Positions 1-50,932 of a stretch of DNA of 64,000 nucleotides are shown here, piece by piece (the stretch's first letter is position 1; every line of letters starts with the position of its first letter). The position numbers and the translations under genes are program-made. A model generated the notes under the pieces. It was not told where the DNA came from and did not search any database. It worked only from the letters and a program-made list of their open reading frames with translations. The DNA is from Mycobacterium sp. HUMS_12744610 (lineage in GTDB: Bacteria > Actinomycetota > Actinomycetes > Mycobacteriales > Mycobacteriaceae), in NCBI RefSeq assembly GCF_041206865.1, contig NZ_JBGEDP010000001.1:248001-312000 (forward strand), given 5' to 3'.

Positions 1-698
1 CCACGTTCGGTGAAGAACGCCTCCAACGCCCGAGCCAGCGATCCCATCGACCGACCCGGCGTGCGGGCCCGCTCGAGCACGCTTTGCGGGTGATTTGGGA
101 AATCGTCTGCGAGCAACCGTGCCAACGTGGTGAGCAGCTTGCATGCCTGCGCCGGGCAGTAATGCGTCGCCAGGTCCGCGACGAAATCATCGAGCCAGCC
201 CGGCGGCTCGGCGAGCCGGGCGGCCAGCGTCTCGCCACGCACGAACGGCCGGTCCGGGCGACGCTGCCAGCATCGCCCACACATGCCGCGCCCGACGTGG
301 CGGCGCAACTCGCCGCAGGACACGCAGACCCGGGGCGGATCCTTCGGCGGACCGGGTCGTGAGCACGAGCCACACCACCCAGTCGACTCGCGCAGATAGC
401 CTGGTTTTCCGCAGCGCGGGCAGGTCGATCTCGCGGCCGCGAGCTTGGCCCGCTTCTGACACGGCCGGCACACCACCTCGTTGCGGAACCGCATCGATCT
501 GCCGCATTCCCGGCAACAGCGCGAACACAGCACGCACCGACCCACCGCCGACACCAGCACCCGGTCGCGCCCACAGCGTGGGCATTGCGCCTTGGCCGCC
601 TGCGTCCGTAACCGGCGGGTGCACAGGCAGCAATGCTCGCGGCCGAGGTATCCGACCGGGGCTCCGCAGTCGACGCAGTCTCGTTGCTTTTTCCCCAT
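1..698 (-). CDS. Zinc-knuckle protein, second copy of the recombinase-operon type (3' end outside window)
   Basis: The minus strand is open from an ATG at 698 to the window edge without a stop, giving at least 232 residues. The translation is studded with CxxC pairs (CVDC, CPRC, CREC, CRPC, CPRC, CGSC, CVSC, CGRC within about the first 150 residues), which suggests several zinc ribbons. It then becomes helical with no motif I recognise. It follows an XRE gene by 32 bases, exactly as the large zinc-knuckle gene ending at 2789 follows its own XRE gene, so I read it as a paralogous second module. The family of that larger protein ends in a recombinase-like domain; whether this copy does is not visible here. 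DNA binding is inferred, not shown. Confidence 0.75.
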   Translation of the reverse strand, partial: MGKKQRDCVDCGAPVGYLGREHCCLCTRRLRTQAAKAQCPRCGRDRVLVSAVGRCVLCSRCCRECGRSMRFRNEVVCRPCQKRAKLAAARSTCPRCGKPGYLRESTGWCGSCSRPGPPKDPPRVCVSCGELRRHVGRGMCGRCWQRRPDRPFVRGETLAARLAEPPGWLDDFVADLATHYCPAQACKLLTTLARLLADDFPNHPQSVLERARTPGRSMGSLARALEAFFTER

Positions 699-730
699 CG
701 GCCGCAACCCGTTCCGAAGCTTCGCCGAAT

Positions 731-1045
731 CTACATCGGCGGCATCGACCGGCCCCGCACGTTGGCTGTCTTCGGTTCCGACGGAACCGACCGCGCCGGA
801 GTGGCGGGCCGTTCGAGCGGGGTGGTATCGGTCTCGAACAGGTCGTCGGGGGTGCACTGCAATGCGGTGCATAACGCGATCAGCGTCGAGAGCTTGATCT
901 GGCTGGGTTCCTTGGTGAACAGCGCCGACACCGACGCCGCCGACATCTCCACCCCGGCCTTCTCTGCCAGCAGTCGCCGCAGCTCGGTTCCGGTCCACAC
1001 CTCACGCTGCGCAGCCGCCATCCGCAACCGCCACCGGATCTTCAT
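731..1045 (-). CDS. XRE-type helix-turn-helix protein (second copy)
   Basis: A 104-residue protein starting at the ATG at 1045, which overlaps the stop of the small upstream gene in an ATGA junction. Residues about 8-65 form a Cro/C1-type helix-turn-helix: an amphipathic start (MKIRWRLRMAAAQ), a recognition region (MSAASVSALF) and the typical ending (ALCTALQCTPDDLFE). The tail is basic and proline-rich. It aligns by eye with the XRE protein at 5222-5554 (shared WRLR-xxMA, Sxxxv-x-L, L-xaLcdxLxC-xxDeL), so the two are paralogues. It probably controls the recombinase operon or acts as a directionality or accessory factor; that role is inference. The longer open frame upstream has no supporting start signal. 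Confidence 0.8.
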   Translation of the reverse strand: MKIRWRLRMAAAQREVWTGTELRRLLAEKAGVEMSAASVSALFTKEPSQIKLSTLIALCTALQCTPDDLFETDTTPLERPATPARSVPSEPKTANVRGRSMPPM

Positions 1046-1200
1046 GCCGTCCCGTCCTCTCCGCTGAGCTCGGCCAAGGTCGAGGTGACCGCACGCCGAT
1101 AAGCGTCCTCGATGAATGTCGCCGACGGACGCTCTGGCGACGTCGGATATCGCAACTGTCGGAATGCCAGGTTGGTCGGGTCCGAGTCTGTCGGTGTCAT
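1042..1200 (-). CDS. 52-aa coupled small protein, unknown function
   Basis: A short frame from an ATG at 1200 to a TGA at 1042. Its start codon overlaps the TGA of the flavin monooxygenase gene (ATGA), and its own stop overlaps the ATG of the following XRE gene (ATGA). This double translational coupling is the main reason to call it real. The product is polar and mildly acidic, begins MTPTDSDPTNLAF and contains a tyrosine-arginine patch (AYRRAVTS). No family is recognised and no signal peptide or membrane segment is seen. Its place between cargo and a DNA-binding pair suggests an accessory role in the element, but nothing in the sequence proves it. Confidence 0.6.
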   Translation of the reverse strand: MTPTDSDPTNLAFRQLRYPTSPERPSATFIEDAYRRAVTSTLAELSGEDGTA

Positions 1201-2792
1201 GTCTGGTTCCGATCGGGGTGTTCGTTGGTCCGGCGCCGGGTCGCGTTGTGTCGGCGAAGGACACCAACCAGGGTGAGAGCGGCAAATGCCGCAAGAGCAT
1301 GCTGGGCGCTCAAGTAGTAGCGGCGACGGTCGATCTTGCGACCGCGGGCCGGGCGCCGTTCTTGGGCGAGGTTTCGGTAGCGTGTCGGCGAGAACGACCC
1401 GAAATATTCGCTGACGAAGTTGCTGGTTCGCCGTGTCGGTAATCCCATGTCGGCCAACAGGTCGTCGATGTGGTGCACCAGGTGCGGTCCGATTTGATAG
1501 CCCTGCGGTCGAGCTGGCATGACCTCCTCCAGCCAGGCCTGCACGCGTCGTATCTCAGTCTGCATTTCATCGAGACTGGGAAGTGCGAGTTCGCCGCGGA
1601 AGCATCGTGAAAGCCAGTGGGCTGAGATTTCTGAGCTGAGCTGACACGCGGTCGATGAGGCGTAGCCCACGAACCCGAGGCGCTGCTCGGTGGGCGGAAG
1701 GATATGCCGGTAGAGCTGGAATCGCCCGTCGGAGACAACGGGTGTCCGCAGTTCGGGCGCTAGAAACGACAACGGCTGGCGCCAGCCGGTGGCGAAAACG
1801 ACGATGTCGGCAGCGATCTGATCGCCGCTGGCCAGCAGGACCTGCGGTCCGCCGAGAAAGGCCGCGACCGAGTCACGCCGCAGGACCAGCCGACCGCGGC
1901 GGGCCATATCGTAGAACTCCTTGCCGAACCCCAGGTTTTCGATTCCAGTAGGCATCGGCTCGTCAGGCACCATGGCCGCAGGCATCCTGAGCAGGAATCG
2001 AAACAGCAGACTCACCACCCGCCAGACCAAGTTGGTCAGCTGCTTGCCCGGCCCGTGCAACAACCTCTCCATCAGGCTGGGGTGGTGGTAGCGGAAGAAC
2101 GCCTCGGTCGAACGTCCCAGAGTCAGCCGGTCGGCGGGAATACCTCCCGGGAAGTAGCGGGGCATCATCCAGTGGGCCTTTCGGAACACCAGCGTGCATT
2201 CCTGCGCGTGCGACCCGGCCCACGCCGCGCAATCCAGCGCGGATTTGCCCGCGCCCACGATCACCACCCGTCGCCCCGCGAACAGGGCAGGATTGGTCGC
2301 TTGGCTTGAATGGACCACCGTCCCGGTGAACCGGTCGGCACCGTCGATCGCAGGCATGTCCGGTTCAGAGAAGGTTCCCGCGCATACCACCGCAAAGTCA
2401 CACACCACGGTGCTCAAACCCGTTGGGCCACAGCTTTCTACCGTGAATTCGTTACCGTGGCGAGACACCCGCACCACCTCAGTCGATAACCGAAGAAGCG
2501 GGGCCAACTCGAACCGGGCCACATACGAGGCCAGATACGCGCGCACCTGCTCAGCGCTCGGGAAGATGTCGGCTGATCGGTCATAGGGATGGTCGGAGAA
2601 TGCGTAGGTGTCGCGTGAGTTGTTGGTACGCAGTCCGGGATAGGTCCGCGATTGGGTCCAAACACCGCCGATCGCCTGCTCCTTCTCGAACACGATCACC
2701 TCGAAGCCGTCCTCGCGCAGCACTTTCGCGGTGACCAGGCCCGCAATTCCCGCGCCGATCACGCCGATCCGCCCGGCCCGCATGTCTGTCAC
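1197..2792 (-). CDS. Flavin-containing (FMO/Baeyer-Villiger type) monooxygenase
   Basis: This 531-residue NAD(P)H-dependent monooxygenase would oxygenate a small organic substrate using FAD. The N-terminal FAD fold shows GAGIAG near residue 13 followed by an acidic end (VFEKE). A second dinucleotide-binding glycine motif (VGAGKS) lies near residue 175, and between them is an FxGxxxHS fingerprint (FTGTVVHSS). A hydrophobic stretch close to the C-terminus (HALAAFAALTLVGVL) could anchor it to the membrane. The GTG start at 2792 overlaps the stop of the preceding zinc-knuckle gene (GTGA); an ATG nine bases further in is the alternative. It is the only metabolic gene in the recombinase operon and looks like cargo. 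The substrate is unknown. Confidence 0.88.
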   Translation of the reverse strand: MTDMRAGRIGVIGAGIAGLVTAKVLREDGFEVIVFEKEQAIGGVWTQSRTYPGLRTNNSRDTYAFSDHPYDRSADIFPSAEQVRAYLASYVARFELAPLLRLSTEVVRVSRHGNEFTVESCGPTGLSTVVCDFAVVCAGTFSEPDMPAIDGADRFTGTVVHSSQATNPALFAGRRVVIVGAGKSALDCAAWAGSHAQECTLVFRKAHWMMPRYFPGGIPADRLTLGRSTEAFFRYHHPSLMERLLHGPGKQLTNLVWRVVSLLFRFLLRMPAAMVPDEPMPTGIENLGFGKEFYDMARRGRLVLRRDSVAAFLGGPQVLLASGDQIAADIVVFATGWRQPLSFLAPELRTPVVSDGRFQLYRHILPPTEQRLGFVGYASSTACQLSSEISAHWLSRCFRGELALPSLDEMQTEIRRVQAWLEEVMPARPQGYQIGPHLVHHIDDLLADMGLPTRRTSNFVSEYFGSFSPTRYRNLAQERRPARGRKIDRRRYYLSAQHALAAFAALTLVGVLRRHNATRRRTNEHPDRNQT

Positions 2793-5218
2793 GTGACCCG
2801 CATCCTTATCTCAGTGGGTGATCGGCGGCTGATTTCGGCTGCGTAAGTGGTCCAGTCGCCGCTGCTGGCGCGCTGCCAGGTCGCGGCGACGCTGATGTGG
2901 ATTCCCAGGGTGCGCGCCAGCACGGCGGCTGGCAGGTCGGTGGCGAGTTGAAACAGGGCGGCGGAACGTGCGCGGCTGGCTTGGATGCCGAGTTGACGGA
3001 GTCGTTCGGCCATGCGGAAGGCGCTGAGGTGGCGGCCGGGCTGCCCGCCGGGGAATAGCCATCGCGAGCTGCGAGGGCGGCCGACGGCGGCGTGAGGTGA
3101 TCGGGTGGAGACCAGGGCGCGGATCAGTCGGTCTAGCGGTGCTGGGATCAGGATCGGCTCGTGTCCGAGCCGCAACCGGACGCTTTCGTCGGTGAGTTCG
3201 ATGTCATCAATGGTCAGTTCGCTTATGGCGGCGGCGGTTTGGGCATAGAGCAGCACCAGCAGGGCAGCGACACGGCCGGCGGTGTCGATCGTGTCGTCGT
3301 GTAGCAGCCAGCGTGCTTGTTCCCAGCGGGTCTCGGTGTCGATGACGCCGCTGGGGCCGTCCCATCGTTGGGCGGCGTGCTCGACTCGGGTGAGCCTGTT
3401 TCGGCGTGCCCAGCGCACGAAGTTGCCGCTGTCGCGACGCTGGCCGGCGGCGGCGCTGGTTAGCCACCGGTCGAGATCTCCCTGTCGGGCAGTGGCAAGC
3501 TTAAGGTTATGCGCGGCAAGCCAATCCAGTAGGGCAGCTGCAGATCTGATGGAGCGCTTGGCGGCGCGGGCTTGCCCGTAGGTGGTGTCGGTGTCGCCGA
3601 CGCGGGCACGCAGGCGGCGGATGACGTGCCAGACGGCGTAGCGGTGCAGCAGGCCGCGCTCCTCGGGATCGACGCGTTCGGTGATGAGGGCGGCGGTCCA
3701 GCGCTGCAACCGCAGCATCTGTTCGTCGCGGTGTGGCAGGGTGCCGATCGCGACCAGGACGCTGCGCAGGTGCTCGACCGGCTTGCCCGCGGGCAGTTCG
3801 TCGAGCGTCTCGTGCGACAGCACGCGCTGACCGGCCTCTAGCTCGCGCAAGATGGCGGGACCGCCGCCGTTATCGAGCCATACCGCGGCCGTGTTGGGAC
3901 GTTCGACCGCGACCAGGGCCTCGTAGAGGTCGCACAGGTCGGGGCGGATGTCACCGCGGGCGTCGCCGAGCAGCTCGCGCAGCCGCTGCTGCACGTTGCA
4001 GCGGGCGCACCGGCTCGTATACCGGCGGCCGCGTTGACCACATCCGGGACAGGTGCGCCAGAAACCGGACTCGTCACGAACGCATTCGGCGCAAAGCGGT
4101 TCGGCCAGCGTGCCGCCGCGGATAGGGCGGAACTCGCCGCACGAAATACATTGGGCCCACCGCTTGTGGCAGGCTTCGCACCACGGGCGGCCGGTGGCAA
4201 TTGAAATCGTGCTCGGCGCGGTCCGTCCGCAGATCGCGCATTCGGCGATCGTCGGCGGGCGGCAACTGGCGCAGCGTGGTCCGTCCTCGCAGCGGATACT
4301 AACCGGTCGGCGGCGGCCGCAGTCCACGCAGACTTCCTGGTTGATCGGATCGGTGACCAGGCAGCTCGGACACACGGGTTGGCCCTGTTCGTCACGGGTG
4401 GCGGCTTCGCGAAGCGCGCCGCAGCGAGCGCATGGTTGGGCACGGGACTTGGCGGTGCAGCTGCGGCATAACCACTTTCCGCCGATAGGCCGGTGCAGGT
4501 GGATGATTCGACCACAACCGGGGCAGGCCGGGTGGACAATGCCTTTCGCTCCGGCGTCCCCGAGCTGGTCGATCAACCGCAGCACCGCAGGATCAGACGC
4601 CTCGGCACCGGCGCCGGTCAGCAGGGCGGGTCGCTGCTGCAATGCCCACGCCAATCGGTATCGGCGTCCGGCACGCGGCACCACCGCCTCGATTGCCGCG
4701 TTGATCTCCTCACCCGACAAGCTCGGGTCTGCTCGCCTCACGACGTCGACGATGAGCGGCGTCGGATCCCGCCCGTCATCGGGCAGGCATCGTGAACACC
4801 TGGGTCGGCCGTCGCGGTCGCGAAGGTAAACCGGCCTGCTCGAGCCGCATATTGTGCAGGGTTCTCGTCGAGGACCGCACTTCGCGCAATACCAGTCATC
4901 CCCGCGTCGCTGCAGGGTGTGTAGATGCTTGCCGCAACCTGCGCAAACCGGAGACGAAATATGCATGGCGCCAGCCGCATTCAGCGCGATCAGCAGCTCA
5001 CCAATCCCACGTGGCGCTGGCGAGCGCCCGTCGGTCAACACTGCGGGCCGGTCCAGCAATGCCTGGGCGAGGCGGCGCCGTTTCGCTCGTCCACCGGCCA
5101 TCGCCTCGACCAGTCCGATGACCGTGCGTCGATCCAGCCCGGGCTTTTCGCCAAGCACCAGATCGACGATGACCCCGATCGGGTCGGCGAGCACCTCAGA
5201 TGCGAATGTCTTTGGCAT
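2789..5218 (-). CDS. Multi-zinc-knuckle protein with degenerate tyrosine-recombinase-like C-terminus
   Basis: An 809-residue protein with three parts. Residues 1-155 and 158-290 are an internal tandem duplication: each has a helical block ending in a RPAxLT motif, then an AGA plus paired CxxC knuckles. Residues 290-410 add more knuckles, giving about 16 CxxC pairs in all. The last 300 residues resemble a tyrosine recombinase fold (helical core-binding part, then a LLVLLYAQTAAAISEL segment where box I would lie and a LARTLGI segment where box III would lie), but the Arg/His/Tyr tetrad is not recognisable. It lies third-from-last among coupled genes after two intact recombinases and an XRE protein. 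I infer a structural or target-recognition partner in recombination. Confidence 0.7.
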   Translation of the reverse strand: MPKTFASEVLADPIGVIVDLVLGEKPGLDRRTVIGLVEAMAGGRAKRRRLAQALLDRPAVLTDGRSPAPRGIGELLIALNAAGAMHISSPVCAGCGKHLHTLQRRGDDWYCAKCGPRREPCTICGSSRPVYLRDRDGRPRCSRCLPDDGRDPTPLIVDVVRRADPSLSGEEINAAIEAVVPRAGRRYRLAWALQQRPALLTGAGAEASDPAVLRLIDQLGDAGAKGIVHPACPGCGRIIHLHRPIGGKWLCRSCTAKSRAQPCARCGALREAATRDEQGQPVCPSCLVTDPINQEVCVDCGRRRPVSIRCEDGPRCASCRPPTIAECAICGRTAPSTISIATGRPWCEACHKRWAQCISCGEFRPIRGGTLAEPLCAECVRDESGFWRTCPGCGQRGRRYTSRCARCNVQQRLRELLGDARGDIRPDLCDLYEALVAVERPNTAAVWLDNGGGPAILRELEAGQRVLSHETLDELPAGKPVEHLRSVLVAIGTLPHRDEQMLRLQRWTAALITERVDPEERGLLHRYAVWHVIRRLRARVGDTDTTYGQARAAKRSIRSAAALLDWLAAHNLKLATARQGDLDRWLTSAAAGQRRDSGNFVRWARRNRLTRVEHAAQRWDGPSGVIDTETRWEQARWLLHDDTIDTAGRVAALLVLLYAQTAAAISELTIDDIELTDESVRLRLGHEPILIPAPLDRLIRALVSTRSPHAAVGRPRSSRWLFPGGQPGRHLSAFRMAERLRQLGIQASRARSAALFQLATDLPAAVLARTLGIHISVAATWQRASSGDWTTYAAEISRRSPTEIRMRVT

Positions 5219-5221
5219 TGC

Positions 5222-5554
5222 TTAGCTTTCAATGCCGCTGATGCGAGCGCGTTTTGGCCGCAGTCCGCCCAGACCGGCGTCGGCGCCGCCAGCGGCACGT
5301 TTCTTGCGCGTCGGCGCGGCTGCGGCGACCGGTTCGATCAGCTCGTCCATCCGGCAGTCCAGGACGTCCAGCAGCGCCATCAGAATATTCAGGCTCAGCC
5401 GCTCGGGTCGCTCGACGACGAGCCGATAGACCTGGCTGGACGACAGATGGATGCCGCGTTGCGCCAACGGCTCTATCAGGTCGGTGGTGCTGAACATCTC
5501 GCGTGCAGCCATCACCTGACGCAGGTGCCATCGGTAGTCGAGTTTGCGGGCCAT
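5222..5554 (-). CDS. XRE-type helix-turn-helix protein (first copy)
   Basis: A 110-residue protein with a Cro/C1-type fold over residues 5-75 (LIEPLAQRG, then the SSSQVYRLV recognition helix, then MALLDVLDCRMDELIEP) and a basic tail (PTRKKRAAGG). Its ATG at 5554 overlaps the TGA of the upstream recombinase (ATGA), so translation is coupled. The next gene starts 3 bases after its stop. In multi-recombinase elements a small DNA-binding protein commonly accompanies the recombinases; here it may be a regulator or recombination accessory protein. It is paralogous to the XRE protein at 731-1045. Confidence 0.82.
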   Translation of the reverse strand: MARKLDYRWHLRQVMAAREMFSTTDLIEPLAQRGIHLSSSQVYRLVVERPERLSLNILMALLDVLDCRMDELIEPVAAAAPTRKKRAAGGADAGLGGLRPKRARISGIES

Positions 5555-6681
5555 CAGGACTCCTTGCCGCTCGTGGGGTCGGGCGCCGTGTCGAACGCCG
5601 GCGCCAGGGCTTTGCGCAGCGCGGTGTTCATGAAGTCACCGGACACGTGGGTGTAGATCGCGGTGGACGTATCGCAGCGATGCCCAACGGCCTCCTGGAT
5701 GAATCGTCGGTCAACGCCCTCCTCAGTAAGGTGCGTCACCCACGAATGCCTAAGGCTATGTGGACTAAGGGTTTTCGGTAGCCCGAGCGCGTCACGGTAT
5801 GTGACGAAGCGGGCGTTGATCTCTGCCGGGGCGATGCGACCGCCACGTTCGGTCACCCACAGTGCCGGATGGTCCTCGCACCCGAAACGGGGCCTGATGT
5901 TGTCGACGTAGTCGGCGACCGCTTCCACCGCCCACCCCATGACCGACGGCACGTTGCGTCGCCGCGGCGGTTGCCCGCGCACCGACTTGCCATAGCGCAC
6001 ATGCAGCATCCCGAACCGGCCGAACTCCGGCACCGCCGGGTTACGGCCCCAGTCAACTACATCCAGCTTCGCCGTCTCGGTCCGCCTCAGGCCCCACCCA
6101 TACACCACTTTGAATAACGTCGCATCCCGGTAGGCGGCCAACGCGCCCTTGCGTTTCGCGCACACCGCACGCTCAACCTGGTCGTCGGCGTAGTCGAGAA
6201 ACCGCTGCAACTCCTCGCGGGTGAATGGCCGGGCCTCTGGGTTGCCCTCGTAGCCATTGAGGTGCTCTATCGTGTTCCACTCATGGCAGATCGGCACCGG
6301 ATGCACACCCGAACCAAACTCCTGCTCGCACACCGCAACCCAGCTATAACGGCCGTCGCACAAATACTCGCTGAACAATCGCAGCTCGGTCTGATAGCCG
6401 CGAATCGTCGAAGGTGCCAGATGCGACTCCGCCATCAACGACTGCGTCCACTCGTCGACATGACCCGGCAGCCAATGCCACGGGTACTCGTTAGTGAACG
6501 TCGCAAACCGGCGCACCAACCGCTCCCGCGGCGCGATGGTCTCCTCCCGCAAACCACGCGCAACCTGCTGGGCACGCCATCCGCGCAACATCGCCTCCAG
6601 CACAGCGTCTTCCGGACGCAACTGCACAACTCCGGAGACCAGCTCCAGATGCGCCGACCCAGCCAGATCTGCCCGCACCAC
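5554..6681 (-). CDS. Tyrosine recombinase (site-specific integrase), second of the pair
   Basis: A 375-residue integrase that would cut and rejoin DNA through a covalent phosphotyrosine. An N-terminal SAM-like core-binding domain (about 25-125) is followed by the catalytic domain with Arg199 (GWGLRR), Lys232 (RYGKS), His308 and Arg311 (HSLRH), His334 (VGHR) and the nucleophile Tyr343 (AIYTHV), so the active site is complete. Its stop overlaps the start of the XRE gene. A gap of 128 bases separates it from the other recombinase upstream, so it may have its own translation signal. It probably works with its neighbour on the same element. Confidence 0.93.
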   Translation of the reverse strand: MVRADLAGSAHLELVSGVVQLRPEDAVLEAMLRGWRAQQVARGLREETIAPRERLVRRFATFTNEYPWHWLPGHVDEWTQSLMAESHLAPSTIRGYQTELRLFSEYLCDGRYSWVAVCEQEFGSGVHPVPICHEWNTIEHLNGYEGNPEARPFTREELQRFLDYADDQVERAVCAKRKGALAAYRDATLFKVVYGWGLRRTETAKLDVVDWGRNPAVPEFGRFGMLHVRYGKSVRGQPPRRRNVPSVMGWAVEAVADYVDNIRPRFGCEDHPALWVTERGGRIAPAEINARFVTYRDALGLPKTLSPHSLRHSWVTHLTEEGVDRRFIQEAVGHRCDTSTAIYTHVSGDFMNTALRKALAPAFDTAPDPTSGKES

Positions 6682-6809
6682 GCCGCCTCCAACCTGAATC
6701 CCCGCAACCGTCCGGCGAAAGGATCATGCATCCAACGGGCGCGATATGCAAGCAATGCAGGTGGGACGCCCTGTCCTGTAGGCGACATGACACCATAGCC
6801 AGATCTGCT

Positions 6810-7838
6810 TCAGCAGGCGACCAGCGGAGACGCGCCCGTCTGATGCAATTTCTGATAGTTCACATAGCGCATGGTCGAACTCACCGTCCAATGACCCAAA
6901 AGCTGTTGGATCGCCACCAGATCAACGCCACGCTCGTAGTTGTGTGTCGCGCAAGCGCGACGCAGCGCGTGTGGGCTGAACCGCTCCGCGACCGGTCGGC
7001 CCTCCAGCTCCATCAGATACCGCAGCCGGTTGCGGATCGTGCCACGATTCAGCGGACCACCGGACTCGTCGGCAAACAACACCGGCGACTCCGGAAACTT
7101 CGGCCGCACATCGGCCAAAAACCACCGCAACAACGCGTCCAACCCGTCCAGCATCGGCACCCACCGCGGCCTAGGACCGGACATGTGGGCGGCCTTGCCG
7201 AATCGCACGTGCAACTTGCCGAACGGTCCACGCCCGAAATGCACGTCCACTATCTCCAGCAGTGCAGACTCTTCCGATCGCAGCCCAGCGTGATACAGGG
7301 TCCGAAACAACGCGTAGTCCCGCGCGGCCGGACCGTACTTGCGGGCGGTGGCGATCCTCGACTTCAAGAACTCGAAGAACTCGCTCACCCGGTCGGGGGT
7401 CGGCGGCGCCCCGACCGCCGGCGACTCGTCACCTACGTGCCGTGAAGCGTTGAACTCATCAACCGGGCACACCAAGCGCACACCGAACCCGGCCTCGATC
7501 TCGGCAGCCTTACGGGCCTGCAGGAACCGGTGAAACCCCTTGAAGATCTGCACGTACTCGCGCCGCGTCGACGCCGAACGGCCCGCCACCGCCAGCTCGC
7601 CAACCACGCGATCGATGTCCTCGCTGGTGACCTCCCACGCCGGACGCCCCAGTGCGGCCAACGTCCGCTCCAACAACCCGATGTCATTGTCGATCGTCAC
7701 CGGGCTAAACCCGCGCGCCCGCCACGACGCCACGAACGCATCGACGCATTCCCGTTGAAAGACAACAGGATCCCTAACAACGGGCTCGACCGGGACGGCG
7801 CCACCGGGAATCAGCCGGAGACCCTCCACCACCCGCAC
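6810..7838 (-). CDS. Tyrosine recombinase (site-specific integrase), first of the pair
   Basis: A 342-residue tyrosine recombinase starting at a GTG at 7838, with a purine-rich GGAAGAAGG just upstream. Catalytic residues are in place: Arg187 (HAGLRSEE), Lys215 (RFGKA), His290 and Arg293 (HALRR), His316 (LGHW) and Tyr325 (MRYV). The first 130 residues form the DNA-binding arm. It is the first gene of the minus-strand run that continues through the second recombinase, XRE protein, zinc-knuckle protein, monooxygenase and second module. Two adjacent non-identical recombinases plus a third degenerate one recall RIT or GInt-type elements, although this gene set does not match my memory of either exactly. 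Confidence 0.93.
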   Translation of the reverse strand: MRVVEGLRLIPGGAVPVEPVVRDPVVFQRECVDAFVASWRARGFSPVTIDNDIGLLERTLAALGRPAWEVTSEDIDRVVGELAVAGRSASTRREYVQIFKGFHRFLQARKAAEIEAGFGVRLVCPVDEFNASRHVGDESPAVGAPPTPDRVSEFFEFLKSRIATARKYGPAARDYALFRTLYHAGLRSEESALLEIVDVHFGRGPFGKLHVRFGKAAHMSGPRPRWVPMLDGLDALLRWFLADVRPKFPESPVLFADESGGPLNRGTIRNRLRYLMELEGRPVAERFSPHALRRACATHNYERGVDLVAIQQLLGHWTVSSTMRYVNYQKLHQTGASPLVAC

Positions 7839-7861
7839 ACCTTCTTCCCACCTAACTCGTT

Positions 7862-7894
7862 AAGGCAGCACCTAACATATCGCGATAATGCCTT
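7862..7894. repeat. Nested inverted repeat upstream of the recombinase operon
   Basis: Outer arms AAGGCA (7862-7867) and TGCCTT (7889-7894) enclose a perfect 10-bp palindrome TATCGCGATA (7878-7887). It lies 24 bases upstream of the first recombinase start and just before a truncated IS21-type relic. It could be a recombinase-binding or terminus site, or an operator for an XRE protein. Only the symmetry is seen. Confidence 0.45.
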
Positions 7895-7929
7895 GAAGAT
7901 CGATGCGACACGCAGAGCAGTCGAAAGTC

Positions 7930-8121
7930 CAGCTAGCAGGGGAAATCGGTCATAACGAACATGTGCCAGCTCCAGTTGAGTGGGGAACCGTCGTGGCCGA
8001 CCCTCGCCTGGTCGCCGCGATCGTGGACCGAATCACCTTCAACGCCCACATCCTCGAAACCGGCACCCAGTCCTACCGGCTACGCACCAGCACGACCCGG
8101 CCAACCAAGAAAACCACCTGA
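7930..8121 (+). pseudogene. istB: IS21-family IstB C-terminal fragment
   Basis: Only the last 45 or so residues of an IstB-like transposition helper ATPase remain, recognisable from VADPRLVAAIVDR, then NAHILETG and SYRLR, the usual C-terminal helix and basic end of that family. The ATPase core and the partner istA are missing, so the element is dead. The open frame extends upstream to 7903 but that part has no family resemblance. The two small genes that follow on the same strand may have been carried by the same element. Confidence 0.6.
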
Positions 8122-9163: not shown

Positions 9164-10507
9164 TTACGCGGTGGCGCTGACGGTTTGGGTGGTGCTGTCG
9201 GCGGCGTTGGGGATGGGGTGGGGTCGCAGTTGCTGGGGTGGTTGCAGCAGGCTGCGGCGTAGGTCTTGGAGTCCGCGCAGCCCGGCCGGTGTCATGGTCA
9301 GTCCGCGCCAGCCGCGAGATGCCCGGTCGAGCACGGCCCAGGCGATGCTGATGCAGCTGGTCTCGCCGGGGAAACGTCCGATAACCTTTGCTCGGCGCCG
9401 TGTTTCGCCGAAGGTGCGCTCGATGAAATTCGAGTGCCGGATACGGTGATGATGCTCAGCCGGGAACCGCAGATAGGCGGTCAAGCCCTCACGATCGGTC
9501 AACAATATCTTCATCGCCGCCGGGTAGGTGGCGCCGTAGCGGGCAGCGAACGCGTCCAGCCGGGCATCGATGAGTTCGACCAGCCGCGGTCCGGGCTCGA
9601 TGTCGGCCTCGGCGGTGGTATCGAAGAGGGCCCAGTAGCCGTCGCGGATCTCTGGCTGCATCCCGGTGGGGATCTTGGCCAAAACATTGCGCAGTCGATG
9701 AATCAGGCAGCGTTGCCGCAACGCCGCCGGGAAGATCTGCTCGATCGCGGCGATCAGACCGCGGGCGCCATCGGAGACGACCAGCAGCGGACACGAAAGC
9801 CCCCGCTCGGTCAGGTCGGTCAAGAAACCGGCCCAGGCATCAGTGGATTCCCCCGAGCCCGGCGCCAAGCCGACGAAGACGGGCTTGCCGTCGGTGCTCA
9901 CCCCCCAGGCGGCCAGGACCGGCTCGGCCGGCGAGCCGGGATGCATCCGGAAAAACGACGCATCCAAAAACAGGTAGTCCAACACGATCTCGTCGAGGCG
10001 GCGCTTGGCCCAGGTGTCGTACTCGGTCTTGATCGCCTGGCAGACCTGCGAAACCGTCGATTTGGAGATCGCGGCCTGATCACCCAGCGCATCAGCCAGG
10101 GTGGCCTCGACATCGCGTACCGATAGCCCCCGCACGAACGAGGCGATCACCAGTGATTCCAGCGCGTTGGTCTTGGTGACGTGCTTGCCGAACAGCCGCG
10201 AGGCGAATGCGGTGGTCGTGCCGCGCAGCTTGGGTCGCTCCAAGGTGACCGGGCCGGCGGTGGTCTTGACCGACACCGGCCGATAGCCATTGCGCGACCC
10301 AGGCTGGGCATCCGGCGTCGCGCCGGCGCGTTGATAGCGGTCCCGGCCCAGGAATTCGGTCACCTCGGCCTCCAGCGCGGCCTGCATCAGCAACTGCGCA
10401 CCGAGGCGGGCCACCTCCTCGAGGATCTCAGGCAACTCACGATCCGAGGCGAACAGCTCGTCGATCTTGGCACGGACACGATCGGTCGGGGATACTCGTG
10501 CAGGCAC
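9164..10507 (-). CDS. IS256 (Mutator) family transposase, outer element
   Basis: A 447-residue DDE transposase. Visible family features include the N-terminal EAEVTEFLGRDRYQR and RNGYRPVSVKT segment, the DASFF segment that carries the first catalytic aspartate, the DGARGL segment with the second, and a C-terminal FIERTFGETRRRAKVIGRF containing the expected glutamate region. It starts at a GTG at 10507. The nested IS begins 55 bases upstream, so native transcription is probably lost although the coding sequence is intact. Confidence 0.92.
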   Translation of the reverse strand: MPARVSPTDRVRAKIDELFASDRELPEILEEVARLGAQLLMQAALEAEVTEFLGRDRYQRAGATPDAQPGSRNGYRPVSVKTTAGPVTLERPKLRGTTTAFASRLFGKHVTKTNALESLVIASFVRGLSVRDVEATLADALGDQAAISKSTVSQVCQAIKTEYDTWAKRRLDEIVLDYLFLDASFFRMHPGSPAEPVLAAWGVSTDGKPVFVGLAPGSGESTDAWAGFLTDLTERGLSCPLLVVSDGARGLIAAIEQIFPAALRQRCLIHRLRNVLAKIPTGMQPEIRDGYWALFDTTAEADIEPGPRLVELIDARLDAFAARYGATYPAAMKILLTDREGLTAYLRFPAEHHHRIRHSNFIERTFGETRRRAKVIGRFPGETSCISIAWAVLDRASRGWRGLTMTPAGLRGLQDLRRSLLQPPQQLRPHPIPNAADSTTQTVSATA

Positions 10508-10561: not shown

Positions 10562-11979
10562 GGGCGTGTCATTCCATCTGTGTAAGTCCGGGGTGGTCCA
10601 TCATCGGACCGCCGTTGGGCGGACAGAAGGAGTGTTTTGTGACCAAGACCATGCAGATGCCGGCTGAGGAGACGACCGCGGCGCGGCGGCTGGCCGAGAT
10701 GTTCACCGAAGAGACGCTGGACTCGTTGATTAAGGATGCGGTGAAGACCGGGACCCCGATCGACGGCGCGGACGGTTTGCTGAACCAGCTGACTAAGGCC
10801 GTGCTGGAGCGGGCGCTGAATGCGGAGCTAACCCACCATCTGGGTTATGAGGCCGGCGATCCGGCCGGACGCGGATCGGGAAATTCGCGCAACGGCACCA
10901 CGCCGAAAACGGTGACCACCGTCAACGGCCCGGTGCAGATCGATGCGCCGCGTGATCGCAACGGCTCGTTTGAGCCGGCGATTGTGCCGAAGAAGACCCG
11001 CCGGCTCAACAACATCAATTCGGTGGTGTTGTCGCTGTATTCACGGGGAATGACCACCCGCGATATCGAAGCCCACCTGCAGGAGGTCTATGGGGCGTCG
11101 GTGTCGCGGGAGTTGATCTCCAATATCACCGAGGTGGTGGTCGATGAGATCAAGGCCTGGCAGGCCCGCCCGCTCGATGAGGTCTACCCGATCCTCTACA
11201 TCGATGGGCTGCGGCTGCGGATCGGCGACAACGGGGTCATCACCACCAAGGTCGCCTATTTGGCCATTGGCGTGGATCTGGAGGGCCGCAAACACGCCTT
11301 GGGCTGCTGGATCCAGGACTCCGAGGGGGCGAAGTTCTGGCAGAAGGTCGTCATCGACCTGCGCAACCGCGGGGTGCGCGACATCCTCATCGCCTGCTGC
11401 GACGGGCTGACCGGTCTGCCTGATGCGATCCGCTCGATCTATCCCGATACCGTGGTGCAGACCTGCGTCGTGCACGTCATTAGGAATGCGATGCGCTTCG
11501 TGTCTTATAAGGACCGCAAGAAGGTCGCCACCGCGATGCGGGCGATCTACAGTGCGCCGACCGTCGATGGAGCCGAACTCGCACTCAAGGAGTTCGACCA
11601 GCAATTCGGCGCCCAATATCCGGGTGCAATTGACGTGTGGCACAACGCCTGGGGGGAATTCGTTCCGTTCCTGGACTATCCGGTGGAGTTGCGCAAGATC
11701 GTCTACACCACCAATGCGATCGAGTCGATCAACTTCCAGTTGCGCAAGATCACCAAGAACCGTGGTCATTTCACGGACAAGGACGCCGCGATGAAGTTGC
11801 TGTACCTCGGGCTGCGCAACATCTCCAGCGAGAGAGGAGGCTATTCGGGTACTGGAACGCACAACTGGACTGTGGCGCTCAACACACTCGCCAGACTATT
11901 CCCTGGGCGAATCCCATTGTGCTAGAATACAACTCGTAGTCAAATCACCTCTGACTTACACAGAAATCGTGACAGGCTC
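10562..11979. mobile_element. IS256-family element, copy 1 (nested)
   Basis: A 1418-bp element flanked by 8-bp direct repeats CCTACGCC (10554-10561 and 11980-11987). The ends are inverted repeats: GGGCGTGTCATTCC then CTGTGTAAGTC at the left, and GAGCCTGTCACGA then CTGTGTAAGTC read inward from the right. A copy of the same length with an identical product lies inverted at 21352-22769. Inserted upstream of the transposase gene of the outer IS256 element. Confidence 0.93.
10639..11925 (+). CDS. IS256 (Mutator) family transposase, nested copy 1
   Basis: A 428-residue transposase. The GTG at 10639 is chosen because AGAAGGAG lies eight bases upstream; a TTG-type start eight codons earlier is possible. 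Family signatures: AELTHHLGYEAGDPAGRGSGN and RNGTTPKTV near the N-terminus, LYIDGLRLRI around the first catalytic Asp, CDGLTGLPDAI around the second, and TTNAIESIN with the C-terminal Glu. The product is identical to that of the copy at 21406-22692, so both copies are recent and probably functional. Confidence 0.93.
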   Translation: MTKTMQMPAEETTAARRLAEMFTEETLDSLIKDAVKTGTPIDGADGLLNQLTKAVLERALNAELTHHLGYEAGDPAGRGSGNSRNGTTPKTVTTVNGPVQIDAPRDRNGSFEPAIVPKKTRRLNNINSVVLSLYSRGMTTRDIEAHLQEVYGASVSRELISNITEVVVDEIKAWQARPLDEVYPILYIDGLRLRIGDNGVITTKVAYLAIGVDLEGRKHALGCWIQDSEGAKFWQKVVIDLRNRGVRDILIACCDGLTGLPDAIRSIYPDTVVQTCVVHVIRNAMRFVSYKDRKKVATAMRAIYSAPTVDGAELALKEFDQQFGAQYPGAIDVWHNAWGEFVPFLDYPVELRKIVYTTNAIESINFQLRKITKNRGHFTDKDAAMKLLYLGLRNISSERGGYSGTGTHNWTVALNTLARLFPGRIPLC

Positions 11980-12496: not shown

Positions 12497-13081
12497 TTGG
12501 TCAGTGTGGTGAGCCGGGTCGTCCGAGACGGCCGGAGCTGGCTGGTCGGCACGGCTGCGGATGTCGCGTGGATATACGCGGCCACTTCGAGCGGCGTCAG
12601 AATCACTTCGGCGATCCCACCCATGTTTGATGACTACGGCACCGTCGTACTGCCCGACACTCAAGGGGAACACCAGCGGCACGATCGGGCTGTGGTCGCG
12701 TTGCTCCGTAGGCAGTCACCGGAGCAACCGTGGTGGATTGGTTACCTTGACACCGGCTGCGCCGACGTCGTGTTTCCCGACGCGCCGAGGGTGACCTTGT
12801 ATGCGAACTGGCCTTATGTGTTGGTACAGGCCGGACCAGAGCAGGCCGCCGACTGGCGGTCTGGTGACGACTGGTCGTCGAGGTCGACTCGCCTACCGGA
12901 CCTGATGTTCCCGGTAGATCGGTCCTGGCTTGTCTCCACGCTGTGGGACGACGATTGGACCTGCGTCGGTGGACCGGTTGCGCTCTTGGAGGGTTTCTTG
13001 AACGACCCCGATCTGCGGGCCCGCGCGCGGCGTGTGGGCCTCGATGAGGACGCCACCCCACCCGGCCGCAAGGCGATCTGA
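12497..13081 (+). CDS. Conserved-looking hypothetical protein, tryptophan-rich
   Basis: A 194-residue frame, TTG start as drawn; GTG codons at 12503-12509 are alternatives, and the true start is unclear. The protein is soluble, with many tryptophans and aspartates (QPWWIGYLDTG, YANWPYVLVQAGPEQA, WLVSTLWDDDWTCVGG), resembling immunity- or SUKH-like folds only in general character, and no family is recognised. Its codon use is ordinary for the window. It lies between the disrupted hydrolase and the ParDE pair and could belong to the same accessory cassette. Confidence 0.6.
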   Translation: MVSVVSRVVRDGRSWLVGTAADVAWIYAATSSGVRITSAIPPMFDDYGTVVLPDTQGEHQRHDRAVVALLRRQSPEQPWWIGYLDTGCADVVFPDAPRVTLYANWPYVLVQAGPEQAADWRSGDDWSSRSTRLPDLMFPVDRSWLVSTLWDDDWTCVGGPVALLEGFLNDPDLRARARRVGLDEDATPPGRKAI

Positions 13082-13161
13082 CCTACGTGTCGGATCTAGA
13101 CAATCGGGACGTCGCAGTTCCTGCTTTGCGCGCTCGGGTCTGGCGGTATTGACATAAAAAG

Positions 13162-13458
13162 TCAGAAATGGCGGTCGACGTCCATCCGTTGGTGCAGGAT
13201 GCGCACGACGTCGATGACGTTTCCGGCGGTCACCCGGTAGAACAGCGTGTGTGAACCGGCAGCGAGCTTGCGATAGCCGGGGCGGATCTCGTCGCAGGCT
13301 CGGCCGATCCGCGGGTTTGCCGCGATGCGGTTGATGGCGTGTTGAAGTTCGCGCAAGTAGTCCTCGGCCTGGTCAACACCCCAACGGTCGTAGGTGTAGT
13401 CCCAGATTTGTTCCAGATCTGCTTGCGCGGCAGGGGAGAGAAGGTATCGGCCGCTCAC
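13162..13458 (-). CDS. parE: ParE/RelE-superfamily toxin
   Basis: A 98-residue ParE toxin. Features are LSPAAQADLEQIWDYTYDRWG at the N-terminus, an AEDYLRELQHAI helix, NPRIGRACDEIRPGYRKL, and the C-terminal FYRVTAGNVIDVVRILHQRMD. ParE toxins poison DNA gyrase and block replication. It overlaps the antitoxin gene by 4 bases (ATGA), antitoxin first, the usual arrangement that lets the pair autoregulate. The pair would stabilise this accessory region. Confidence 0.93.
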   Translation of the reverse strand: MSGRYLLSPAAQADLEQIWDYTYDRWGVDQAEDYLRELQHAINRIAANPRIGRACDEIRPGYRKLAAGSHTLFYRVTAGNVIDVVRILHQRMDVDRHF

Positions 13459-13706
13459 TGCCCATGCGGTACCTGAGCCCGCTTGCGATCGATGAAGGCG
13501 TCGAAGTCGAACGGTGTCGAGCTGCCGCTGCGTTCGCCGGCCTCGAGAGCATCGCGCAGCGCCCCCAGCTGGGTTTCGCGGTCTTCAAGCAGCCGCAATG
13601 CGGAGCGGACGACCTCACTGGCCGACCGATAGCGCCCCGCGGCGATCTCGCCGTCGATGAAGGCGCTGTAATGCTCATCGAGACTGAAGGACGTATTCTT
13701 ACCCAC
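13455..13706 (-). CDS. parD: ParD antitoxin
   Basis: An 83-residue ribbon-helix-helix antitoxin: SFSLDEHYSAFIDGEIAAGRY with the strand and helix that bind DNA, SASEVVRSALRLLEDRE, and an acidic C-terminus (STPFDFDAFIDRKR) that would wrap the toxin. It is the first gene of a two-gene operon with parE. Just upstream is TGTACCAACTATTGGTACAGT (13714-13734 region), a near-perfect inverted repeat that is a likely ParD operator. Confidence 0.93.
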   Translation of the reverse strand: MGKNTSFSLDEHYSAFIDGEIAAGRYRSASEVVRSALRLLEDRETQLGALRDALEAGERSGSSTPFDFDAFIDRKRAQVPHGQ

Positions 13707-13713
13707 GAACTGA

Positions 13714-13734
13714 CTGTACCAACTATTGGTACAG
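13714..13734. promoter_or_regulatory. Inverted repeat, probable ParD operator
   Basis: TGTACCAA and TTGGTACA form a palindrome centred on CTA, 8 bases upstream of the parD start. ParD-type ribbon-helix-helix proteins bind such repeats in their own promoter. The symmetry is visible; operator function is inferred. Confidence 0.6.
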
Positions 13735-13744
13735 TCCTAACCAC

Positions 13745-14030
13745 ATGGCCGGACCCTGGGCCGTGATGCTCTTCATCAACCACTCCTGCGAACCCAACGT
13801 CGGCTTCGCCGGCAACATCGTGCTCGTCGCCATGCGCGAAGTGACCGCCGGTGAGCAACTGACCACGGACTATGCGCTGTTCGACGACTACGACTGACAA
13901 ATGATCTGCCACTGCAACATAGCCTCCTGCCGGCGCGTGATCGGCGGACACGACTAGCGGCGAAGCGACCTACAGCGCAGGTACCACCGGTACTTCTCGT
14001 GGTACCTCCAACGCAAAATCACCGAAATGC
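13745..14030 (+). pseudogene. SET-domain protein methyltransferase fragment
   Basis: The frame contains the C-terminal half of a SET domain: FINHSCEPNVGFAGNIVLVAMREV, then GEQLTTDYALFDDYD, the NHSCxPN and ELxxDY signatures that bind S-adenosylmethionine and the lysine. Beyond an in-frame TGA at 13895 it continues with a post-SET cysteine region (CHCNIASCRRVI) and after a TAG at 13955 with LQRRYHRYFSWYLQRKI. The N-terminal half is missing. Bacterial SET proteins with a post-SET cluster occur in mycobacteria; this is a decayed copy. Confidence 0.75.
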
Positions 14031-14268
14031 ACGCCAGCGGCACAGAGCGTAGTTCTGTCGACGAGTTCCACCCGAACACCCCTGGATCAAGGCTACGAGC
14101 GGCGCCAGATACGAGACCCGGACCGGTTCCCTGAGCCCCCGGTGTCACAACTCGCTCTCAGGCGGGGAACGCCACTTGATGCTGCCAAGCAACTTAAGGA
14201 AACTCTAAGCACATCCGGCTGATGGCGCGGCTCCGCTCATCGGCAAACATGAACGAAAGGGCAGCATC

Positions 14269-14742
14269 ATGGCCGACGACCTGTCGGAAGCAACACGGAT
14301 CGACCGGCGCGCCGACGAGGATGCCATCCGCGAGCTTCTTGATCGCCAGATCATGGGCTGGGACACAGGGGATCCCCATGCATACGCCAGCGTCTTCACC
14401 CCCGACGCGGACTACGTCACTTTCCTGGGCAGCCACTACAAAGGCCGCGAAGCGATCGCAACGTCTTACGCCCCGCTGTTCAAGAAGCTCTTACGCGGAT
14501 CACGCCTGAATACAGAAATCACCCAACTGCGGTTTCTGACGCCCGACGTGGCGCTGATCCAGGCAAATGCCGCTGTGACGAAGGGGGCGCGGCGGCGGAA
14601 TCGCCGCTACACCCGGGTCAACACCAGCATCGCTGTGCGGACAGACGACGGTTGGCTGTTGACCGCCTCGCAGAACACCACACATCGCCGGTTCGCCGAA
14701 AAACTGATGGACAAACTGGTTTCACGACAATCCCACAAATGA
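14269..14742 (+). CDS. SnoaL-like / DUF4440-type NTF2-fold protein
   Basis: A 157-residue protein with an NTF2-like cone fold: DEDAIRELLDRQIMGWDTGDPHAYASVFTPDADYVTFLG is the classic N-terminal pattern of SgcJ/SnoaL-type proteins, followed by GREAIATSYAPLF and a C-terminal sheet (TSIAVRTDDGWLLTASQNT). GAAAGGGCAG precedes the ATG. Such proteins act as small-molecule binders, cyclases or isomerases, often next to biosynthetic enzymes. Here it precedes the acetyltransferase-decarboxylase fusion by 226 bases on the same strand, so a shared small-molecule pathway is possible. Confidence 0.85.
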   Translation: MADDLSEATRIDRRADEDAIRELLDRQIMGWDTGDPHAYASVFTPDADYVTFLGSHYKGREAIATSYAPLFKKLLRGSRLNTEITQLRFLTPDVALIQANAAVTKGARRRNRRYTRVNTSIAVRTDDGWLLTASQNTTHRRFAEKLMDKLVSRQSHK

Positions 14743-14968
14743 GACAGGATGCGATCACTCCGGTTCCTCTAGAACCAGACACGCCGTTGAGGCCCGCTTG
14801 TAGATGCACGATGATGGCTCCAACAGACGTCGCCGGGCAGGCTGTCCCCCTGCTGCGCATGTGGTGCTACCGCAGAGGTGGCGGCGTAATAATCGTCGGG
14901 CGCGGACGGCCGATCGCTCCTGAACAGGGCGGGCGACGATCTCGGTGTTGAGGAAGTGCGGTGCACGG

Positions 14969-50842: not shown

Positions 50843-50932
50843 GGTGGCGTGTCCGAGCGGCCTAAGGAGCACGCCTCGAAAGCGTGTGACGGCTAACACC
50901 GTCCGAGGGTTCAAATCCCTCCGCCACCGCCA
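50843..50932 (+). tRNA. tRNA-Ser(CGA)
   Basis: 90 bases with acceptor GGTGGCG / CGCCACC, long variable arm (TGACGGCTAACACCGTC), T arm with GGTTCAAATCC, anticodon loop CTCGAAA (anticodon CGA), discriminator G and encoded CCA. It corresponds to serX next to tadA in M. tuberculosis. Confidence 0.96.

Follow-up and report, generated by a model that had tools for sequence, protein, structure and literature searches.

A likely site-specific transposon of Mycobacterium, nested in a sister element, with the catalytic-tyrosine codon of other recombinases as its recurrent target

The window analysed here, a stretch of 64,000 bp (C1:248001-312000 of the 6.4-Mb genome of Mycobacterium sp. HUMS_12744610), carries, as its sequence reads, two related mobile elements nested one in the other, the inner of which interrupts the tyrosine recombinase (YR) gene of its sister one codon past the catalytic Tyr. 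The inner unit is likely a site-specific transposon of a family with a core of three genes, for a YR (rec), an XRE regulator and a zinc-ribbon protein that includes a degenerate YR domain (ZnR), behind which cargo may follow, and the catalytic-Tyr codon of other YR genes appears to be its recurrent target. A preliminary description of this DNA had suggested that the element type may be undescribed, and indeed no description of the family was found in the open-access literature. The parts of the inner element are as follows.

1132..6860, minus strand: complete inner element of 5729 bp; its flanks in L010 and L011 are unrelated
6861..6866, minus strand: target hexamer TATGTG, made up of the invaded YR's catalytic Tyr codon and one further codon
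6840..6860, minus strand: left terminal sequence AACTATCAGAAATTGCATCAG, conserved in relatives as AACCCTCGGGAATTGCATC
5554..6681, minus strand: rec2, active-looking YR, 375 aa (PF00589)
5222..5554, minus strand: XRE1, HTH_26 regulator, 110 aa (PF13443); found in 90/90 long-enough loci
2789..5218, minus strand: ZnR1, zinc-ribbon protein of 809 aa that includes a degenerate YR domain
1197..2792, minus strand: cargo, FMO-like flavin monooxygenase, 531 aa (PF00743)
1132..1137, minus strand: right-end hexamer CCAGAG, identical in L009, L010 and L011 despite different left hexamers; variants in relatives

All eight minus-strand open reading frames (ORFs) of the preliminary description are present in the ORF listing, and the 4-nt overlaps at 5554, 2792, 1200 and 1045 agree with the ORF coordinates. 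Pfam recognized both YRs (PF00589), both XRE proteins (HTH_26), the FMO-like enzyme and, in the second zinc protein, DZR_2, and gave no match for ZnR1 at E 0.1. The residues that we take to be the catalytic motif of rec2 (R, H..R, H, Y) were invariant in a 7-row alignment. That the DNA is mobile stands, whereas its eight genes are not a single operon or a single element, because 1132-6860 is a separate unit with its own ends and with copies elsewhere in the genome. The bounds of this unit came from comparison of 20-kb stretches around the genome copies (L009 is the copy in the window), which have unrelated flanks in L010 and L011, and from uninterrupted rec1 orthologues (L184-L190). Four full-length, identical copies of the 809-aa gene, along with some partial ones, are present in this genome. 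The earlier proposal of a composite, in which a pair each of recombinases, XRE proteins and zinc proteins belong to one element, would account for the co-directional genes with their 4-nt overlaps and for the recurrence of the whole arrangement in L012 and L014; it is nevertheless very improbable, since L010 and L011 carry the unit by itself, relatives such as L048 have just three genes and the outer family occurs without the inner element in L184-L190. The solitary copies also led us to reject the one-operon reading. Thus the genes are shared out between two elements, each with a single complete YR, a single XRE and a single zinc/degenerate-YR protein, and the view that one element combines two complete recombinases with an inactive third and an extra regulator module is not supported. 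The parts of the outer element within the window are listed below.

1..7977, minus strand: outer element, part within the window; shared with L012 and L014 in different istB-type flanks; other end near C1:245085, outside the window
6810..7838, minus strand: rec1, YR of the outer element; own sequence 6861-7838, 16-aa tail 6813-6860 from the inner element
1042..1200, minus strand: 52-aa junction ORF; 1132-1200 is the inner right end (23 codons) and 1042-1131 the displaced last 29 codons of rec1
731..1045, minus strand: XRE2 of the outer element (PF13443), 35% identical to XRE1 over 71 aa
1..698, minus strand: ZnR2 of the outer element, 541 aa in all, continuing beyond base 1

The nesting is seen in rec1. 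Seven uninterrupted orthologues (L184-L190, 69-86% identity) continue as TMRYVRPSETFIEDAY across the insertion point, and in the window the target resumes after CCAGAG as RPSATFIEDAYRRAV. Since the intact orthologues read straight through, rec1 carries a foreign 16-aa tail, and the 52-aa protein, which had been counted as a gene of its own, is a junction ORF across the inner right end and the displaced rec1 codons. In L009, L012 and L014 the inner unit lies inside the larger outer element, which is itself within istB-type genes; the outer-element flanks of L014, when joined, read through as TSNRSPD-EWLAVMTDP, and those of L009 and L012 were read by eye. In L010 the inner element sits in another sister element, with TTARYI before the junction and HVHATHVEDAW after it. 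L015 is a chimera, flanked on the left by another YR gene and on the right by the same sequence as L009. By annotation, a Pseudonocardia plasmid (L204) shows the order YR-[YR-XRE-ZnR]-XRE-zinc protein as in the window, with the left junction at the Tyr codon of a YR.

To read the target in other insertions, the left end was sought in 92 sequences (L104-L183, L048-L055 and four copies of the own genome), and 65 distinct sites with upstream sequence were kept. Sequences were dropped for having no left end (six: L113, L117, L122, L134, L160, L178), for a contig beginning at the left end (nine: L105, L112, L135, L137, L138, L147, L166, L168, L182) or as duplicates (six: L054, L106, L115, L116, L118, L152), as were the spurious matches L104, L109 and L144, the masked upstream sequence of L164 and the tandem junctions L176 and L180; L012 and L014 share the site of L009 and were not counted apart. 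YRs were called from the C-terminal motif, read by eye, with a Pfam check on 58 upstream fragments, which gave PF00589 in 40, ISL3 in 3 and DNA ligase in 1, several of the remaining fragments being short. For L111, L126, L131 and L143 all frames were read, and the YR was then assigned to one displaced by a single base.

At 50 of the 65 sites the upstream frame ends as a YR C-terminus at the catalytic Tyr, mostly at Tyr plus one codon. The left hexamer begins with TAY in 56/65 sites, compared with a background of 0.93%. The invaded YRs are very diverse (14-39% identical to the first alignment row), the right flanks in many loci read on as YR C-termini, and there is one orientation, with the element genes co-directional with the target gene. 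L107 and L128 have the element within recs of its own family (by eye). A hold-out was made of 12 of the 40 listed plasmid matches (H3, H4, H6-H15), chosen by identity from outside the first set and retrieved once the rule had been worked out: 11 of the 12 showed the left end, and in 10 of these 11 the insertion is at a YR's Tyr codon (with a 4-nt offset in L202 and L203), the exception being L209, in an IS3-type transposase (by eye). A leave-one-out DNA matrix ranked the true site first or second in 24/31 scored YR sites.

Several observations weigh against so strict a target. Fourteen of the 65 sites are not in YR genes (four at one ISL3-transposase site, one in a DNA ligase, nine other) and one was too short to call; among the 50 YR sites, four have a 4-nt offset and three lie at a double Tyr; and the matrix placed the true site only 5th to 77th in 7 of the 31 scored YR sites. 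L011, which adjoins an acyl-CoA synthetase-like ORF (by eye), is not a YR site. The names ISL3, IS3, IS256, istB and acyl-CoA synthetase were given partly by eye, and Pfam confirmed ISL3 in three cases. It could also be argued that the insertions merely pile up in DNA rich in mobile elements, where YR genes abound, and many matches are indeed on plasmids (184 records). We give this explanation hardly any credence, because a pile-up would not yield the same codon in a single orientation in YRs only 14-39% identical to the first row, nor the excess over the low TAY background at that place.

Insertion occurs without target duplication, behind the target hexamer (mostly TAYNNN), which is retained at the left end. 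At the right end stands CAGTTCCAATACCCGACGTCACCA with three more bases; among the 69 right hexamers, 68 start with CC (CCATTA 30, CCAGAG 15) and none with TAY. Thus the element seems to keep its own right hexamer and the target its own. The right end resembles the left in inverted orientation (CCAATACCCGA against TCGGGAATTGC), centred between CCA and TTA, which suggests a 6-bp core. In L176 and L180 the right end stands immediately before the left end, as in a tandem or a circle. Two points temper this: the 6-bp core rests, in our reading, on a weak inverted similarity, and the tandem junctions, known like the rest from sequence, are the nearest hint of excision, a circle or movement.

As to the ends of related DNA, a 5730-bp contig of Mycobacterium helveticum (L105) corresponds closely to the inner element with its cargo (5729 bp), and several other contigs of 4.1-4.8 kb start at the left end, as collapsed multi-copy repeats would. 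More distant rec relatives (L068-L073 from G245, six near-identical copies; L074-L076 from G143, three) have other targets; their left ends show variable hexamers between conserved ATAAT-like and TTATCGGC-like arms, with a second variable stretch about 7 bases further in.

We propose that rec, as an active YR, would perform the chemistry, that the two ends would pair around the 6-bp core (CCATTA-type in the element, TAYNNN in the target) with no match required, and that ZnR, taken as an inactive YR that bears six to eight putative zinc sites, would select the target DNA. With the right hexamer retained by the element, the invaded gene would be whole again after excision. Until then the invaded YR would keep its Tyr, gain a foreign C-terminal tail and probably be disabled or altered, and the insertion may let the element be read from the promoter of the target.

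On the other hand, the end of the element might supply a working replacement C-terminus and thereby preserve the activity of the invaded YR, in the manner of elements that restore the genes they enter. An in-frame tail (often NPRELHQTG...) does follow the Tyr in the sites, a 32-codon tail is common to 39 loci, and the outer element is present with a tailed rec1 at three istB-type sites in a genome where no uninterrupted rec1 was found at E 1e-40. We regard this as improbable, because the differences between tails favour no codon position strongly (6179, 5855, 7003; past the stop codon 6852, 5711, 6925), so that the conserved start of the tail may instead be a DNA-binding site, and because the three outer copies could have been invaded after spreading. 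Coding selection on a replacement tail is unsupported by these codon-position counts. Two accounts of these copies offer themselves: a tailed rec1 that is still functional, or entry of the inner element later than the spread of the outer one.

The outer family itself sits in other transposition genes, namely istB-type (L009, L012, L014, L185, L186, L189) and IS256-type transposase genes (L184, L188), all named by eye, and L187 and L190 have a common target distinct from both. Each of the three istB-type outer copies in this genome (L009, L012, L014) has an interrupted rec1. Right ends of the outer family were found by pattern search in 3/7 loci. In L009, a CTAG-bordered insertion of about 1.9 kb (oriented 12917-14829, left of the window), absent from L012 and L014, lies near the end of ZnR2; it carries a 580-aa ORF on the opposite strand and looks like an insertion sequence. 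Two transposase-like ORFs in opposite directions (window 9164-10507 and 10615-11925; mutator/IS256-like by eye) adjoin the element, and that at 10615-11925 recurs as separate insertions in L012 and L014. A tRNA-Ser (cga) lies at window 50843-50932, far from both ends of the elements.

The core of the family holds together in relatives. Matches to rec2 were found in 72/301 genomes of the host family (E up to 1e-60) and in 184/72,556 plasmid records. The relatives are the best 80 of 127 loci in genome contigs (at least 72% identity), with an alignment of seven close recs as the query; by their record titles 78 are Actinomycetota, one is a Dormiibacterota metagenome-assembled genome (MAG) and one an Acidobacteria MAG, in public genomes that are biased in sampling. 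Among the 90 of 92 loci long enough for a core test, XRE was present in 90/90, ZnR in 89/90 (L170 has none within 5.2 kb) and the expected gene order in 88/90. The preliminary description had raised the question whether a four-gene core always travels together with variable cargo; XRE and ZnR both accompany the YR in 89 of the 90 loci, and the cargo differs. The cargo position lies between ZnR and the right end and, in loci with a clear right end, spans 11 bp to about 3.9 kb; it holds the FMO gene in the window, a HAD hydrolase in L206, an MFS transporter with a MerR regulator in L207 and L208 and a GNAT protein in L211, and in the relative L048 there is no FMO gene and the right end comes directly after ZnR. 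A defence system was considered and rejected, as PADLOC gave a single weak match, to the FMO. No match was found among 50,697 phage records at E 1e-40. Three viral contigs matched, and of the two examined one (L199) had the left end, with the element within a phage-type integrase.

The 809-aa protein had been described as a degenerate recombinase joined to zinc motifs, and this agrees with our comparisons. The AF2 model of ZnR1 matched YR folds over about residues 513-791 (VIA-align), a weak PF00589 match was obtained in 7/31 ZnR relatives, and Trp781 stands at the place of the catalytic Tyr, invariant in 31/31 ZnRs (placement by eye). The C-terminal domain is thus predicted, from the model put to this test, to have the fold of the YR superfamily without the catalytic Tyr. 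A search of the PDB sequences with the ZnR profile gave weak matches, mostly to zinc proteins and none to a YR. Comparison of the ZnR and rec profiles gave no match, which counts against the proposed explanation.

With regard to the choice of target, the four elements at the ISL3 site have a ZnR with 12 CxxC motifs instead of 16, and their ZnRs form one clade in both halves of the protein. In the rec tree, one clade of these four is rejected (p-AU 0.013 in the approximately unbiased, AU, test; L104 was left out of tree and test). L148 illustrates the difference: its rec is 84-86% identical to six YR-site recs (L139, L140, L150, L156, L157, L174), 83% to L167 and 79% to L116, and its ZnR is 63% identical to that of the ISL3-type L116 and 42-49% to those of the YR-site group members. 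The ZnR phylogeny, not that of rec, therefore follows ISL3 versus other targets, which suggests that ZnR reads the target. The support comes, unfavourably, from four elements in two pairs at p 0.013, and the element at the DNA-ligase site (L181) has an ordinary ZnR with 16 CxxC, so that the target is not determined just by how many zinc motifs there are. If rec rather than ZnR picked the target, the correlation with ZnR would be accidental. The small number of ISL3-type elements and the fact that each of their pairs is also a clade in the rec tree would allow for this, but it remains rather doubtful in view of the rejected rec clade, the grouping by both ZnR halves and the placement of L148, whose rec is closer to YR-site recs and whose ZnR is closer to that of L116. 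Taken further, ZnR might be a modular and exchangeable DNA reader whose zinc array directs the partner rec, a swap of which would retarget an element among YR, ISL3 and other genes, making the family a predator of recombinases that hits rival elements at their active site and can leave without a scar; we put the chances of this extended proposal at about even.

An element whose preferred address is the codon for the nucleophile of another recombinase would exemplify, in nature, the parasitism of one element on another with the precision of a codon. It also offers a testable answer to the possible role of dead partners in multi-protein YR elements such as GinC and Tfp, in that the phylogeny of the dead partner follows target choice. 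Moreover, nesting explains runs of recombinase, recombinase, XRE, zinc protein, XRE and zinc protein in actinobacterial DNA, and the terminal motifs will let annotators locate the ends of such elements. Should ZnR prove to be a modular reader, a recombinase able to insert with no matching core would be of practical interest.

Other mobile DNA is known to seek the recombination apparatus of its neighbours: the res-site hunter transposons of the Tn5053 family enter resolution sites by DDE transposition. The present family differs in YR-type insertion into the coding sequence of a recombinase active site. Among YR elements, the Tn554-related transposons of actinobacteria likewise have several genes, with one ordinary and one very long protein, and several copies per genome; in the part of Van Houdt et al. 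(2012, PMC3414803) drawn on here, the long partner is a YR with a potential catalytic motif and many of them have TnpC (DUF6262). ZnR1 had no significant match to the three long proteins of pBD2 (best E 0.79), XRE1, an HTH_26 protein, had no blastp match to the two pBD2 DUF6262 proteins, and rec2 showed general YR similarity only to the three pBD2 sets (L196-L198; best E 1e-8). Tn554-like recombinases are instead among the targets of the present family: the YRs entered in L050 and L171 resemble the short YRs of pBD2, and in L212 the element interrupts the long YR of a Tn554-like trio (by annotation).

The preliminary description had set the element apart from RIT and GInt, and the defining genes of both are absent from the inner element. 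RIT elements, in the passages of the same paper (PMC3414803) used here, consist of three adjacent YRs, each with a possible catalytic motif; they share with our element overlapping genes, a length of about 3.5 kb and multiple copies, and one RIT was reported inside a transposase gene. The inner element has one PF00589 protein, one HTH_26 protein and one degenerate YR with Trp at the Tyr place. GInt elements carry ginABCD, that is two YRs with the full motif, GinC (without the first Arg) and the helix-loop-helix GinD, and 6-nt staggered cuts with inexact att sites were proposed for them, as far as the portion of Bardaji et al. (2017, PMC5385486) considered here goes. They are alike in the YR operon with a degenerate YR and a small protein and in the cargo behind the operon; gene content sets the inner element apart, with its one full YR, HTH_26 protein and zinc-bearing degenerate YR.

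The SE elements (strand-biased circularizing integrative elements) are similar in their 6-bp junction hexamers, in the target hexamer kept at the left end and in YR-only chemistry, and their partner Tfp, like ZnR, has a YR fold without the RHRY motif. Within the excerpt of Idola et al. (2023, PMC10214605) on which we rely, SE has two active YRs (intA, intB), tfp and srap in the set intA-tfp-intB-srap, and the left hexamer of the donor passes into the new right end. The inner element has one full YR and no second between its ends. The left hexamers vary with the target, which fits SE, whereas the right hexamers are element-like and never TAY in the 69 loci, which does not. Thus the gene content is not that of RIT, GInt, SE or Tn554-like elements, but a named type is approached in the outline of working: judging from sequence, the element probably works like Tn554, GInt and SE, in that a YR moves it to selected sites through a short core with a partner lacking the catalytic Tyr. 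What is new compared with the known kinds is the target and the zinc-bearing dead partner.

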